Assembly: GCF_900096585.1 (NCBI RefSeq)
Contig: NZ_FMYH01000005.1
Span: forward strand, 186,001 to 250,000
Direction of reading: 5' to 3'
Length of the DNA stretch: 64,000 nt
Source of the DNA: Sanguibacter gelidistatuariae
GTDB lineage: Bacteria; Actinomycetota; Actinomycetes; Actinomycetales; Cellulomonadaceae
The translations under genes and the position numbers were made by a program. Position 1 is the stretch's first letter. The number at the start of each line of letters is the position of its first letter. Below are positions 3,462-57,479 of this stretch, one piece after another. The notes under the pieces were generated by a model, which saw nothing but the letters and a program-made list of their open reading frames with translations, made no database searches and had not been told where the DNA came from.

Positions 3462-6389
3462 GTGACCGATGCCTCTTCCCCCCACGTCCCAACCGCCGCT
3501 CCCACCGGACCGGCGGACCCGTCGCTGCGCTACACGGCCGCCCTCGCGACCGACATCGAGCTCAAGTGGCAGCAGCGCTGGGCCGAGCGCGGCACGTTCT
3601 ACGCGGCCAACCCCTCGGGTGAGCTGACGGACGGCAAGGGCCGCAACGCCGACCCAGCGAGCCCGAGCTTCTTCGTCATGGACATGTTCCCCTTCCCCTC
3701 CGGAGCTGGGCTGCACGTGGGGCACCCGCTCGGCTACATCGCGACCGACGTCGTCGGGCGCTTCCGGCGCATGTGCGGGGACAACGTGCTGCACGCGCTG
3801 GGCTTCGACGCCTTCGGCCTGCCGGCCGAGCAGTACGCGGTCCAGACCGGGCAGCACCCGCGCGCCACGACCGAGGCGAACATCACCAACATGCGCCGCC
3901 AGCTGCGCCGCCTGGGCCTGGCCCACGACGAGCGCCGCACCTTCGCGACGACCGACTCGGAGTACGTGCGCTGGACGCAGTGGATCTTCCTGCAGGTCTT
4001 CAACTCCTGGTACGACGCCGACGCCGAACGCGCCGGTGGTGGCGCCGGCCGGGCCCGTCCGATCGCCGAGCTCGAGGCCGCCTACGCCGCGGGCACCCGG
4101 GCGACCCCGGACGGGCGCCCGTGGACGGAGCTGTCCGCCCTCGAGCAGCGCACGGTCGTCAACGACCAGCGCCTGGCCTACGTCTCCAACTCCCCGGTCA
4201 ACTGGTGCCCGGGCCTGGGGACCGTGCTCGCGAACGAGGAGGTCACCTCCGAGGGACGCTCCGAGCGCGGCAACTTCCCCGTCTTCCAGCGCAACCTGCG
4301 CCAGTGGAACATGCGGATCACCGCCTACGCCGACCGCCTGGCCGACGACCTCGAGCTCATCGACTGGCCGGACAAGGTCAAGGCCATGCAGCGGAACTGG
4401 ATCGGGCGCTCCGAGGGTGCGCACGTCACCTTCGACGTGACCGGCGCCTCGCCGGTGACGGTGTTCACGACGCGTCCGGACACCCTGTTCGGGGCGACCT
4501 TCATGGTCGTCGCCCCGGAGCACCCCCTCCTCGACGAGGTCCCCGCGGCCTGGCCGGACGGCACCCGTGCCGCGTGGACCGGTGAGCACGCGAGCCCGAT
4601 CGAGGCCGTCGCCGCCTACCGCGCCGGCGCCGCTGCGAAGACGGCCGTCGAGCGGCAGGCCGACGCCGGGAAGAAGACCGGTGTGTTCACCGGTCACCTG
4701 GCCACGAACCCGGTCAACGGCATGGCGATCCCCGTGTTCACCGCGGACTACGTCCTCATGGGCTACGGGACCGGCGCGATCATGGCCGTCCCGGGCGGAG
4801 ACGCGCGTGACTTCGCCTTCGCCGAGGCCTTCGAGCTGCCCGTGATCTACACGGTCGCCGTGCCCGAGGGCTTCGAGGGCGGGGCGTACACCGGCGACGG
4901 CGCGATCGTGGCCTCAGCCAACGACGACGTCAGCCTGGACGGGCTGAGCGTCACCGAGGCCAAGGCCATCATCACCGCCTGGCTCGAGGCGAAGGGCTTC
5001 GGCTCCGCCACGGTCACCTACCGCCTGCGCGACTGGCTGTTCAGCCGACAGCGCTACTGGGGCGAGCCGTTCCCGATCGTCTACGGCGACGACGACCAGC
5101 CGATCGCGCTGCCGAAGGAGATGCTGCCGGTCGACCTGCCCGACGTCCCCGACTACTCCCCGCGCACCTTTGCCTCGGACGACGCCCAGTCTTCCCCGGA
5201 GCCGCCGCTGGGCCGCAACGAGGACTGGGTCAACGTCACCCTCGACCTCGGCGACGGGCCGCGCACCTACCGCCGCGACACGAACACGATGCCCAACTGG
5301 GCCGGGTCGTGCTGGTACTACCTGCGCTACCTGGACCCCTTCAACAACGGCCCCGAGGCGCTCGTGCCGGTCTCGCCAGAACTTGATGAGTACTGGATGG
5401 GCCCGAACCACAACGAGACCTCCGGCGCGGCCGGCGGCGTGGACCTGTACGTGGGCGGCGTCGAGCACGCGGTGCTGCACCTGCTCTACGCGCGGTTCTG
5501 GCACAAGGTGCTCTTCGACCTGGGCTACGTCTCGAGCGTCGAGCCGTTCCACAAGCTCTTCAACCAGGGCTACGTCCAGGCCTACGCCTACACCGACTCC
5601 CGCGGGCAGTACGTCCCCGCGGAGGAGGTCGAGGAGATCCTCGCCGGCGACGGCTCGGCCATGTACCTGTGGAAGGGCGAGGTCGTCAACCGCGAGTACG
5701 GCAAGATGGGCAAGTCGCTCAAGAACGTCGTGACCCCGGACGAGATGTACGAGGCCTACGGCGCGGACACCTTCCGGGTGTACGAGATGTCGATGGGCCC
5801 CCTCGACGTGTCCCGCCCGTGGGACACCCGCGCGGTCGTCGGCTCGCAGCGCTTCCTGCAGCGGCTGTGGCGCAACGTGCTCAGCGAGGACACGGGGGAG
5901 CTCAACGTCTCCGACGAGCCGGCTTCGGTCGAGACCCTGCGCCATGTGCACCGGGCGATCGTCGACGTGCGCGTGGAGATGGAGAACATGCGCGCCAACA
6001 CGGCGATCGCGAAGCTCATCACCCTCAACAACCACCTCACCAGCCTGCCCGTGGTGCCCCGCGAGGCGGCGGAGGCGATCGTGCTGATGACCGCCCCGGT
6101 GGCCCCGCACATCGCCGAGGAGCTGTGGGAGCGCCTGGGCTACGAGGAGTCCCTGGCTCACGCGCCGTTCCCGGTCGCCGACGAGCAGTACCTCGTCGAA
6201 GACACCGTGACGTGCATCATCCAGGTCCAGGGCAAGGTCCGCTCCCGCCTGGAGGTCGCCCCCGACATCACGGCGGAGGCCCTGGAAGCGGCCGCCCTGG
6301 CCGACCCCACCCTCCTCCGCTTCCTCGACGGCGCCCCCATCCGCAAGCTCATCGTCAAAGCCCCCAAGCTAGTAAACGTCGTCATCTAG
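3462..6389 (+). CDS. leuS: Leucyl-tRNA synthetase
   Basis: Class I aminoacyl-tRNA synthetase that charges tRNA-Leu in the cytoplasm; 975 residues, a little longer than the E. coli enzyme. The HIGH-type motif is seen as LHVGHPLG near residue 84. The KMSKS loop appears as KMGKS near residue 748. Between them lie a large CP1 editing domain ([20 protein letters not shown], with [12 protein letters not shown] later) and the catalytic segment [16 protein letters not shown]. The C-terminal part carries the anticodon-binding domain. GTG at 3462 is supported by its position next to a -10-like hexamer and by MTDASSP-type N-termini that add only a short tail. The gene stands alone. Confidence 0.98.
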
Positions 6390-6405
6390 CCCCACCCCCC
6401 ACCAG

Positions 6406-6483
6406 CCCGCCCCCTTCCGCTGAGTGTACGAAAATGCGCGTGTCGCCCCGGCGTGTCGCGTACAAGATCGTGCACTCAGCGGA
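6406..6483. repeat. Palindromic repeat copy A, inverted partner of 7438-7514
   Basis: A 78-bp segment after leuS. Its ends form a perfect 10-bp inverted repeat, CCGCTGAGTG at 6417 with CACTCAGCGG at 6473. The stem extends five more pairs inward (one G-T wobble) and then continues imperfectly to the middle. GCGTGTCGC also occurs twice inside it (6438 and 6451). The reverse complement of 7438-7514 matches this copy at about 76 of 78 positions, including the flanking CCCGCCCCCTT; the differences are one substitution and one missing base. It lies at the 3' end of leuS and could also act as a terminator. Confidence 0.9.
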
Positions 6484-6533
6484 GGTTGTCCACAGCAGGT
6501 GGGGCAGGTCTCCCGGGGTGGATCGGGGAGGCA

Positions 6534-6539
6534 CAGGAT
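6534..6539 (+). promoter_or_regulatory. -10-like CAGGAT six bases before the DUF559-type gene ATG
   Basis: CAGGAT is followed by six bases and the ATG at 6546. It fits the leaderless pattern seen elsewhere in the window except for its first base, and helps choose this start. Confidence 0.3.
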
Positions 6540-6545
6540 CTGGGG

Positions 6546-7445
6546 ATGGATGTTCCTGAAGGTGGCCCGTTCCTGAGTCGGGATGCCCTCGCGCGGGGTG
6601 TGTCTCGACGCGTGCTCGACAGTCGGTTGTTTGCCAAGCCGTTTCAAGGCGTGAGGGTGCCGGCCGGGGTCGATCTCGGTCTCGCAGAGGAGTGCGCCGC
6701 TGCGCAACAGTTCCTGCCCGACGTCGCAGCATTCAGCCATGTGACTGCCTTGCGCTTGCTCGGGGTCGAGATTCCGTGGCGTCTCGAGCGGGACCGGCGC
6801 ATCCACGTCGTCGTTCCCAGGCGGGACTTCCGTCGTCCTCGGACCGGTGTCGTCGCTCACATATGCACGCAGCTTCGGCCCGAGGTGTGTGTTGTCGACG
6901 GGCTGCGTGTCACATCGGCAGCCCAGACCTGGCTGCAGTTGTCACACGGGATGCTGATCGACGACCTGGTTGTGCTCGGCGACGCGATGCTGCGCCGAAA
7001 GGATCCAGTGACGACGAGCGAGGCCCTTCTCGTGCGGACCGAGGCGACCCACAAGATGCGTGGCCTCGCTACATGCCGGTCAGCCGTCGACTTGGTGCGC
7101 CCAGGAACCGACTTAAGTATGGAAACTCGGGCTCGGCTGTTGCTGATCACCGCAGGGCTGCCGTGCCCGGAGGTCAATCAGCCTGTCCATTCGAGCAGTG
7201 GTGCGTTCCTGGCGTTGCCGGACATGCAGTATCGGGACCTCAAGATCGCCATCGAGTACGACGGAGACGTGCACCGTACCGACCCTGCCACCTGGCGCCG
7301 TGACGTCGAGCGCCGCCAGCGTCTCGAGGACGACGGCTGGTTGATCATCACCGCCACGGCAGATGATGTCCTCCGTCATCCCGACCGCTTCCTCCGCCGA
7401 GTTCGCGCTGCCCGAGTTGCCCGCCGCCACCTCACCTTCCGCTGA
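6546..7445 (+). CDS. AbiEi-like winged-helix plus DUF559/Vsr-like endonuclease-fold protein
   Basis: A 299-residue protein. The N-terminus (FLSRDALARGVSRRVLDSRL, then a KPFQGVRVP strand) resembles the small winged-helix domain called AbiEi-like antitoxin domain. The C-terminus (IAIEYDGDVHR, then WRRDVERRQRLEDDGW) has the E-x-D and R-x-x-x-L-E-x-x-G-W pattern of DUF559, a Vsr-like PD-(D/E)XK nuclease fold. Such proteins are numerous and uncharacterised in actinobacteria, and no antitoxin/toxin partner is adjacent. Base composition is visibly less GC-rich than in leuS or the DUF853 gene, and codon use is less biased, suggesting acquisition. The TGA stop lies inside palindrome copy B, so repeat and gene end are fused. 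Nuclease activity is an inference from the fold. Confidence 0.75.
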   Translation: MDVPEGGPFLSRDALARGVSRRVLDSRLFAKPFQGVRVPAGVDLGLAEECAAAQQFLPDVAAFSHVTALRLLGVEIPWRLERDRRIHVVVPRRDFRRPRTGVVAHICTQLRPEVCVVDGLRVTSAAQTWLQLSHGMLIDDLVVLGDAMLRRKDPVTTSEALLVRTEATHKMRGLATCRSAVDLVRPGTDLSMETRARLLLITAGLPCPEVNQPVHSSSGAFLALPDMQYRDLKIAIEYDGDVHRTDPATWRRDVERRQRLEDDGWLIITATADDVLRHPDRFLRRVRAARVARRHLTFR

Positions 7446-7514
7446 GTGCACGATCTTGTACGCGACACGCCGGTGCGACACGCGCATTTTCGTACACTCA
7501 GCGAAGGGGGCGGG
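7438..7514. repeat. Palindromic repeat copy B, inverted partner of 6406-6483
   Basis: A 77-bp segment that is almost the exact reverse complement of copy A. It begins inside the last codons of the DUF559-type gene and supplies its TGA stop (within CCGCTGAGTG). It sits between two convergent genes. Together with copy A it bounds a unit of about 1.1 kb holding only that gene. Confidence 0.9.
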
Positions 7515-7524
7515 GCGGGGTGGG

Positions 7525-9426
7525 TTAGCGGCGGCGGGTGCCGAAGATGGATCTGGTGATCTCTCGGCCCAGGGCTGAGCCGGCGGACTTGAGGAGGGAG
7601 TCCAGGCCGCCCTGGGCGCCGCCGGTCGAGCGGCGGGAGGTGGCCGTCCTCGCGGGCGGACGGGCGGCGTCGCGCTCGAGCTTGGCCTGCATCTTGGCGA
7701 GCTCGTCGGCGTGCTTGGCCGCCTCCTTGTCGGCCGCTGCGCGGACCTTCGCGGCCTCCTTGGCCGTCGCGGCGTCGGCCTGGGCCTGCTGGGCGGCGGC
7801 CTGGTCTGCGGCCGCCTGCGACGCCGACGCCGCGACCCGGGCGGTGAGCAGCTCGTATGCGCTCTGGTTGTCGACCGGTGTGCCGTACCGCGCCAGCGAC
7901 GGCGACGCAGCGATGACTTCATTCATGGTCGCCTCGGGGGCGGGGTCCATCGACGACTGCGGAGCCCGCACCCGGGTCCAGGCGACCGGCGTCGGCGCGC
8001 CCTTCTCGGTGAGGACCGTGACGACGGCTTCGCCCGTGCTCAGCGACTGCAGCAGCTGCTCCAGGTCGTAGGGCGACGTCGGGAAGGTGCGCACCGCGGC
8101 CTTGAGTGCCGCGGCGTCGTCGGGGGTGTAGGCGCGCAGCGCGTGCTGGACCCGGTTGCCGAGCTGGGCGAGCACGTCCGCGGGCACGTCCTTGGGGCTC
8201 TGCGTGATGAAGAAGATCCCGACCCCCTTGGACCGGATCAGCCGCACGGTCTGCACCACCTGGTTGGTGAAGTCCTTCGACGCGCCGCGGAACAGCAGGT
8301 GCGCCTCGTCGAAGAAGAACACAAGCTTGGGCTTGTCGAGGTCGCCCACCTCGGGCAGGTCTTGGAACAGGTCCGCGAGCAGCCACATGAGGAAGGTCGA
8401 GAACAGCGCGGGCCGGTCGGCGACCGCGGGCAGCTCTAGTGCGGAGACCACGCCGCGGCCGTCAGCCGCCAGCCGCAGCAGGTCCGACGACGCGAAGGCC
8501 GGCTCCCCGAAGAACACGTCCGCGCCCTGCGCCTGCAGCGTGATGATCTCCCGCAGGATCACCCCGGCGGTCGCGGCCGACAGCCCGCCGATCCCCTTGA
8601 GCTGAGCCTTGCCCTCGTCGGACGTGAGGTAGGCGATGACGGACTGCAGGTCCTTGAGATCGAGCAGGGCCAGGCCCTGCGTGTCCGCCCAGTGGAAGAC
8701 GAGCCCGAGGCTCGACTCCTGCGTGGGGTTGAGCTCGAGCACCTTGGAGAGCAGCATCGGACCGAAGTCGGAGACGGTCGTGCGGATCGGCACGCCCGTG
8801 CCCAGCCCGCCCAGCGAGTAGTACTCGACCGGGTAGGCGGTCGGCTCCCAGTCCTGGCCGATGCTGTGGGACCGCTCGAGGATCTTCTCGCCGCTGGCCC
8901 CCGGCACGGCCAGCCCGGACAGGTCGCCCTTGACGTCGGCCAGGAAGACGGGCACCCCGGCGCCGGAGAGCCCCTCGGCCATGCCCTGGAGCGTCTTCGT
9001 CTTGCCGGTCCCGGTGGCCCCGGCCACCAGCCCGTGCCGGTTGAGCATGGACAGCGCAAACCCCACCTGCGCGCCCGACGCCGCGACAGGCTCCCCGCCG
9101 ATCTCACCCTCGAGCAGCGCACCCAGGGCAAGCGCCCCGCCTGGCGCGGCGTAGGCCGCGGCGACCTGGGCGGCGTACTCGGACAGGGTGCCGGTCTCGG
9201 GTGGGATTGGGGACTCGGGGAGCGGTTCGGGCTGGGTGGGTGCCGGAGCGGATGCCGGTGCAGATGCCGGTGCGGCGACCTGCCCCGCGGCCGCGAGGGC
9301 GGCGTCGAGGGCGGCCTGAGCAGCGACCGCCCGTGCGTCGGCGGCGTCGGCGGCCGCCTGGGCTGCCGCGGCGCGCAGGGCCGCGAGGTCGGGAGCGGGG
9401 CTGGGGGAGAGAGCGTCGTCGGCCAT
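7525..9426 (-). CDS. DUF853 / HerA-like (YjgR-type) ATPase
   Basis: A 633-residue P-loop ATPase of the HerA/FtsK-related DUF853 family, of unknown cellular role, possibly a DNA helicase or translocase. Walker A is GATGTGKT near residue 139. Walker B is LVFFFDEAHLLF, followed by the sensor-like stretch GIFFITQSPKDVP. An Ala-rich N-terminal coiled coil with a Pro-rich linker (about 70 residues) and a Lys/Ala-rich C-terminal coiled coil (KEAAKVRAAADKEAAKHADE) surround the ATPase core; these are longer than in the E. coli homologue as I remember it. The ATG at 9426 follows TAAGAT by six bases, consistent with leaderless expression. It is divergent from degV across only 63 bases. Confidence 0.88.
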   Translation of the reverse strand: MADDALSPSPAPDLAALRAAAAQAAADAADARAVAAQAALDAALAAAGQVAAPASAPASAPAPTQPEPLPESPIPPETGTLSEYAAQVAAAYAAPGGALALGALLEGEIGGEPVAASGAQVGFALSMLNRHGLVAGATGTGKTKTLQGMAEGLSGAGVPVFLADVKGDLSGLAVPGASGEKILERSHSIGQDWEPTAYPVEYYSLGGLGTGVPIRTTVSDFGPMLLSKVLELNPTQESSLGLVFHWADTQGLALLDLKDLQSVIAYLTSDEGKAQLKGIGGLSAATAGVILREIITLQAQGADVFFGEPAFASSDLLRLAADGRGVVSALELPAVADRPALFSTFLMWLLADLFQDLPEVGDLDKPKLVFFFDEAHLLFRGASKDFTNQVVQTVRLIRSKGVGIFFITQSPKDVPADVLAQLGNRVQHALRAYTPDDAAALKAAVRTFPTSPYDLEQLLQSLSTGEAVVTVLTEKGAPTPVAWTRVRAPQSSMDPAPEATMNEVIAASPSLARYGTPVDNQSAYELLTARVAASASQAAADQAAAQQAQADAATAKEAAKVRAAADKEAAKHADELAKMQAKLERDAARPPARTATSRRSTGGAQGGLDSLLKSAGSALGREITRSIFGTRRR

Positions 9427-57414: not shown

Positions 57415-57479
57415 CCGATAGGTGCACGAGTTCCGCCCTGCTTCGGTGAGAAACAGGGCGGAGCTCGTGCACCTATCGG
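57415..57479. repeat. 26-bp-stem palindrome between dusB and the alpha-glucosidase gene
   Basis: The arm at 57415-57440 (beginning CCGATAGGTGCACGAG) pairs with 57454-57479 with a single mismatch (G-T in RNA) over a 13-base loop. It lies between convergent gene ends and will act as a bidirectional terminator. The GTGCACGA core recurs in the palindrome at 7438 (GTGCACGA) and, as GTGTACGA, in the one at 6406, which hints at one repeat family with variable ends. Confidence 0.85.

Follow-up and report, generated by a model that had tools for sequence, protein, structure and literature searches.

The closest described systems are the REP and REPIN elements with their RAYT (TnpA-REP) transposases, together known as REPtrons. 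RAYT transposases, encoded by single-copy genes that pass vertically, have been described as duplicating the non-autonomous REPINs (PMC8049555), and the REPs of some REPtrons cluster close to the gene (PMC8266576). The unit discussed here resembles REPtrons (PMC8049555, PMC8266576, PMC3733652) in its many short extragenic palindromes and in the association of these palindromes with one mostly vertical gene that is itself sometimes flanked by them. It differs in the enzyme, which is a predicted AbiEi plus Vsr/EDxHD-fold protein, whereas RAYT is a Y1 HUH transposase. Further, REPs span 20–40 bp and carry a GTAG tag, whereas the palindromes here are ~64 bp long with CGCTGAGTGC-type feet.

Three other protein groups invite comparison. 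The nuclease fold is that of the EDxHD homing endonuclease I-Bth0305I, which, according to a review, forms a dimer on a target just under 60 bp long, about the length of the present palindromes (PMC3943268). Unlike EDxHD homing endonucleases, the gene here is free-standing between two whole palindromes and does not lie in an intron, an intein or its own target, and the DNA-binding half is AbiEi-like. The protein also resembles the Vsr-like DUF559/MTES_1575 REase family, as most aligned homologues match both Pfam models; no palindrome partnership for these REases was found in the searched literature, including PMC3710099. Residues 1–185 have the fold of AbiEi, the antitoxin of the AbiE toxin–antitoxin system. 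The protein departs from AbiEi in its additional nuclease domain and in the absence of a toxin gene next to it. The searched literature, outside which most subscription papers and preprints lie, contains no account of such a nuclease–palindrome pair, although this does not prove its absence.

In the window, the whole stretch of 64,000 nucleotides of Sanguibacter gelidistatuariae DNA analysed here, one gene, for a 299-aa protein (6546–7445, forward strand), is enclosed by two copies of a palindrome of subfamily A. Copy A, on the leuS side (6418–6481, forward strand), ends 64 nt 5' of the start codon. Copy B (7440–7503, forward strand) is inverted relative to copy A, and its foot provides the stop codon TGA (7443–7445). 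The first-pass annotation noted neither this overlap nor the tens of additional palindrome copies elsewhere in the genome. Adjoining copy A is a TTGTCCACA box (6486–6494, forward strand), which we take by resemblance to be DnaA-box-like and which recurs upstream in many homologue loci. The left neighbour leuS (TIGR00396; 3462–6389, forward strand) and the converging HerA_C gene on the right (PF05872; 7525–9426, reverse strand), the DUF853 of the first-pass annotation, provide context and are not part of the unit. No inverted repeat in the window is longer than the one formed by the arms 6397–6488 and 7433–7524 (92 nt, 89% complementary). The first-pass annotation described two near-identical inverted copies, matching at about 76 of 78 positions. 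This holds for the 64-base cores, which match at 63/64 positions when inverted and at 44/64 when compared directly, but over the 78-base frame the ungapped match is 73/78. Each core is itself an imperfect palindrome (22/32 pairs). The enclosed gene is, as annotated, the only one between the copies and poorer in GC than its neighbours (65.1%; leuS has 70.3% and the HerA_C gene 73.0%), with a GC3 of 74% against 96% and 93%, respectively. A scan of window positions 5500–9000 returned no Rfam family.

The winged helix and Vsr-like nuclease proposed at first pass agree with a confident AlphaFold2 model of the 299-aa protein (pLDDT 95.4, pTM 0.90) and with fold matches. These fold assignments come from a second comparison of the candidates suggested by Foldseek, which by itself gave no match under an E value of 0.001. 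In structure alignments, residues 190–295 matched I-Bth0305I (3r3p; Z 12.7, 97 residues, 2.8 Å), a Neisseria endonuclease-like protein (Z 12.0) and Vsr (Z 10.5), and a profile match to 3r3p had an E value of 0.0025. TnsA of Tn7 was discarded as a relative, its Z of only 6.1 being within the chance range. Residues 1–185 matched the AbiEi antitoxin (Z 11.9, 172 residues, 5.0 Å) and Rv2827c (Z 9.4), and the PADLOC AbiEi models match the N-terminal half. Pfam matches of the window protein alone to MTES_1575 and DUF559 both fall under the cut-offs, and at E ≤ 0.01 the two models match 42/43 and 38/43 aligned homologues, respectively. In the alignment of these 43 proteins, E193, E237, D239 and D253 do not vary, and D226 and H243 hardly vary. 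The unit lacks a transposase, as had been annotated: Pfam and NCBIfam scans of the protein found no transposase family. No AbiEii-type partner gene adjoins the locus, the neighbours being leuS and the HerA_C gene. By these models, the protein is composed of an AbiEi-antitoxin-like half and a Vsr/EDxHD-nuclease-like half.

The palindrome belongs to a family dispersed through the genome. A 73-base query retrieved 15 near-full-length relatives at E ≤ 1.2e-11, both window copies included, and the pattern GCTGAGTG-N36-56-CACTCAGC occurs at 55 exact places, compared with none for the reversed control. The 58 copies catalogued here are those in fetched loci and not all copies of the genome, and by their cores they sort into 14 of type A (the window type), 6 of B, 30 of C and 8 of D. 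Types A and C have almost constant CGCTGAGTGC feet but differing inner blocks. By the gene calls of a home-made caller, 56 of the 58 copies lie between predicted genes, with 27 at convergent, 22 at tandem and 7 at divergent junctions; one more is in a predicted gene and one at a locus edge. Convergent junctions are enriched, at 27/56 intergenic copies compared with 50/281 background junctions (p 6e-6). One lone copy, of family D, lies between converging genes in the window (57416–57478, forward strand) and is missing from the orthologous site of S. suarezii; D palindromes also stand on both sides of the paralogue with 54% identity, on contig C12. Around the 58 copies, C-rich sequence precedes the palindrome and G-rich sequence follows it, and the last outer base is C or T in ~95% of the pooled flanks. 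Such flanks may reflect a preference for certain targets or belong to the unit itself. The TTGTCCACA/TTATCCACA box adjoins only 3 of the 58 copies. A C-type palindrome elsewhere in the genome (G000:C15:133721-133782, L080) stands next to a TTGTCCACA box without a detectable gene, and is possibly a relic of a lost unit.

Folding of single-stranded DNA was far beyond that of shuffled sequences for copy A (z −6.1) and less so for copy B (z −2.5). Watson–Crick cells numbered 254 in the 13 copies of subfamily A used, against a shuffle maximum of 255, and 689 in the 30 copies of subfamily C against 687 in shuffles, with 27 double changes against 26. As compensatory changes in A and C hardly rise above shuffles, which is not decisive, no claim is made for recognition of a folded hairpin. 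A duplex reading is favoured because it is sequence blocks that are conserved, and not compensatory pairs.

Gene and palindrome go together within this genome and beyond it. The genome encodes five homologues, the paralogues of the window protein sharing 59%, 54%, 31% and 27% identity with it. The 59%-identical paralogue (contig C11) has a C palindrome upstream only, and the 54%-identical one has D palindromes on both sides. Among six congeners compared, the only genome with family D is the one with the D-flanked paralogue (7 matches, against 0 in the other five). The S. suarezii orthologue, at the same leuS site, has B-type palindromes on both sides. In a set of 94 unique homologue loci (105 actinobacterial loci less 11 duplicates), a strong palindrome, defined by a score of at least 16, was found upstream of 46/90 homologues compared with 6/211 control genes, downstream of 40/93 compared with 4/245, and at both ends of 30/89. 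At 42% identity or above, the counts were 35/44 upstream and 31/46 downstream, and below it 11/46 and 9/47. These counts are conservative because the window copies themselves score below 16 (13.5 and 11.5). In many loci the upstream palindrome ends ~60 nt from the start codon, and the stop codon often lies within a palindrome foot. An upstream TTGTCCACA or TTATCCACA box, on either strand, occurs in 35/90 loci compared with 0/211 controls.

The palindrome sequence is locus-specific, and the copies within a locus agree. In the 32 loci with both copies, upstream and downstream copies score a median of 0.74 against each other (lowest 0.17), compared with 0.13 against other loci. The first-pass annotation had regarded the copies as terminal inverted repeats. 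They are instead near-symmetric sites, with the direct orientation fitting better in 14 of the 32 loci and the inverted in 11, the others being ties. Palindrome similarity tracks protein identity only above ~60–70%. No single domain could be singled out as setting specificity, the middle and C-terminal parts performing about equally. Some distant homologues have other, often weaker palindromes nearby (L107 and L118, both from Microbacterium paludicola, and L119 and L123, both from Propionibacteriaceae), and the distant homologue of Mycobacterium sp. GA-2829 (L139) has a nearby palindrome CGCGAGAC...GTCTCGCG.

Across 150 genomes of the family, at least three CTGAGTG palindromes were found in 19/21 genomes with a homologue below E = 1e-79, the threshold for a gene-bearing genome (G061, at 8.0e-80, counts as gene-bearing), and in 10/129 without; the reversed-pattern control gave 8 matches, in 7/150 genomes. 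The association persists within five genera (49 genomes; permutation p 2e-4, Mantel–Haenszel odds ratio 28), statistics that correct for genus and not for full phylogeny. The weakest within-genus contrast was in the Promicromonospora-like group g7 (4/5 against 3/8). Palindromes, 3 to 16 per genome, also occur in seven genomes that have no homologue at E ≤ 1e-30, two of these being incomplete assemblies, and two genomes with a close gene fall below three palindromes (G050 with 0, G096 with 2). More distant genera repeat the pattern with palindromes of their own. The gene-flanking palindrome of Jiangella has 10, 8, 40 and 9 copies in four Jiangella genomes and none in five other genomes (control 0), and that of Kribbella has 5 and 3 copies in two Kribbella genomes and none in seven other genomes (control 0). 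In Jiangella aurantiaca (G152), 13 of the 20 fetched copies (L228–L240) share common flanks and seemingly sit inside a larger repeat, and the flanks of the other 7 (L241–L247) are unrelated from the palindrome edge outwards.

Collectively, flanking palindromes, locus-specific copies and co-occurrence support the first-pass view that palindrome and nuclease gene belong together. Of the two observations that were said at first pass to refute this view, the first, palindromes scattered without DUF559 genes, is half true: most dispersed copies have no adjoining gene, yet they occur mainly in close-gene genomes. The Y1/RAYT transposase family PF01797, the only one covered by the transposase search across the genus, gave no match at E ≤ 0.01 in six genus genomes (0/6), whereas 6/14 control genomes were positive. 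With dispersed copies, a flanked gene, co-occurrence and no Y1 transposase in these six genomes, the analogy to REP-associated transposases is apt. Carriage of the gene by phages or plasmids was rejected on the scarcity of matches, which comprised 5/72,556 plasmid records (all ≤34% identity), 1/50,697 phage records and two partial viral contigs.

Comparison of related genomes separates the behaviour of the lone palindromes from that of the gene. Over 216 kb aligned with S. suarezii, 4/5 lone palindromes have no counterpart at the orthologous position and 1/5 has a decayed one, while the gene and its flanking palindromes are common to both genomes. Similarly, a pair of Oerskovia-like genomes (339 kb aligned, 92% identity) share both gene-flanking palindromes, and the sole credible lone palindrome of one, left after 3/6 pattern matches in the G074 stretch had been dropped as coding-like, is missing from the other. 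Flanks at such present/absent sites are too diverged for a target-site duplication to be read. Among 30 genomes, picked mostly for absence of the close gene, G001 and G116 have an open leuS/HerA_C junction (6 and 10 bp, respectively), and six others have one palindrome there, in a gap of 71–91 bp (G027, G066, G097, G105, G111 and G123). The G027 junction consists of the outer flanks of a loaded Oerskovia locus (L085) around one palindrome, and the G097 and G111 junctions of those of C. cellulans (L091) around one palindrome. At the G067 junction (L283), two palindromes lie ~150 bp apart with the gene internally deleted, which is a MITE-like form of the unit. The remaining junctions were unclear, rearranged, without a HerA_C gene nearby, or occupied by other sequence.

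The gene occupies the leuS/HerA_C junction at 26 loci, 17 without duplicates. It is co-directional with leuS in 8/17 (both Sanguibacter, four Oerskovia, one Cellulosimicrobium and one Promicromonospora) and inverted in 9/17 (four Cellulosimicrobium, four Promicromonospora and O. flava). Both orientations are real, yet they track palindrome type and clade, and free, coin-flip inversion of the gene was rejected. In a gene tree of 42 rows, leuS-site genes cluster mostly by genus. The co-directional L090 groups with four inverted Promicromonospora genes (support 100/100) and is nested inside them with lower support (88/91). From the tree and the junction states it follows that inheritance of the gene is the rule, with occasional loss from between its palindromes, and that a change of orientation tends to come with a change of palindrome type. 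The first-pass suggestion of a spreading cassette is therefore too strong for the gene, which at leuS is common to several genera and mostly follows them; being mostly vertical there, it is not a frequently jumping cassette. It is the palindrome that is scattered. The second observation that was said to refute the first-pass view is likewise half true: relatives do carry the same gene at the same site, mostly by descent, but losses, solo palindromes and changed orientation also mark its history.

These data show a stereotyped layout of palindrome, often a TTGTCCACA box, gene, and a palindrome often overlapping the stop codon; palindromes that differ between loci and agree within them; extra intergenic copies of the cognate palindrome; palindromes and a close gene occurring in the same genomes; and gene-less sites with a single palindrome. 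On balance, the gene and its palindromes appear to form one co-evolving unit, REP/RAYT-like but built on an unrelated enzyme, although the evidence is correlative. Against this reading stand the seven gene-less genomes with palindromes, the few strong flanks below 42% identity, and the contig C11 paralogue with its palindrome upstream only. Mechanistically, a protein dimer would use its AbiEi-like domains to read both palindrome feet as a dyad in duplex DNA, and the Vsr/EDxHD domains would cut within or beside the palindrome. Repair of the break could then copy palindromes, and occasionally the whole gene unit, to other places, and such copying would allow the gene to sit either way round at a symmetric site. 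The gene would thereafter be kept mostly by vertical descent, with the palindromes as non-autonomous copies of the gene unit. A more specific and decidedly tentative proposal is that the system did not evolve from REP/RAYT. Here, a homing-endonuclease-like AbiEi–Vsr dimer might recognise the ~60-bp double-stranded palindrome, cut it and, via double-strand-break repair, spread palindromes and on rare occasions its own gene, facing either way, with one symmetric site serving as target, end and non-autonomous copy.

AbiEi represses its own promoter. The palindrome could accordingly be the operator of an autoregulated gene, with the downstream copy as a terminator and the dispersed copies as selected regulated targets or terminators. 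The AbiEi-like N-terminal fold, the distance of ~60 nt between upstream palindrome and start codon at many loci, and the preference of dispersed copies for convergent junctions would all fit. We nevertheless consider this explanation unlikely, as it gives no reason to expect an intact nuclease-type active site in 43/43 aligned homologues, a palindrome at both gene ends, lone copies present or absent between species, or 8–40 copies in Jiangella. If, instead, another enzyme moved the palindromes, the gene would be a passenger that enters them or uses them as landing sites, which would account for the orphan palindromes of seven gene-less genomes and for solo and loaded states of one site. However, palindrome type tracks the gene of the same genome, and the PF01797 search of six genomes gave no Y1 transposase in the genus; a passenger gene is distinctly unlikely.

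Matches of the PADLOC AbiEi models to the N-terminal half could also point to a defence or toxin–antitoxin component, with the palindromes arising as a by-product, for instance as marks or as scars of recombination. With leuS and the HerA_C gene as neighbours in place of an AbiEii-type partner, and with the cognate dispersed palindromes left unexplained by a defence role, this is very improbable. An ordinary insertion sequence, in which this protein would be the transposase and the whole unit would spread between terminal inverted repeats, is scarcely credible: a gene does lie between inverted repeats with its stop codon within one end, but the protein has no transposase domain, the ends are near-symmetric palindromes, the genome has five homologues compared with tens of palindromes, and the leuS-site gene is mostly vertical.

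REP elements have been tied to one enzyme class, RAYT, and a second, unrelated enzyme showing the same pattern in genomes would show that palindrome/nuclease partnerships are convergent. If the co-evolving unit is real, it would provide a function for part of a common and unexplained actinobacterial family, namely DUF559/MTES_1575 proteins with an AbiEi-like half. The partnership is directly testable pair by pair because each gene names its own palindrome. It would also explain the intergenic palindromes of Sanguibacter, Oerskovia, Cellulosimicrobium, Promicromonospora, Jiangella and Kribbella.
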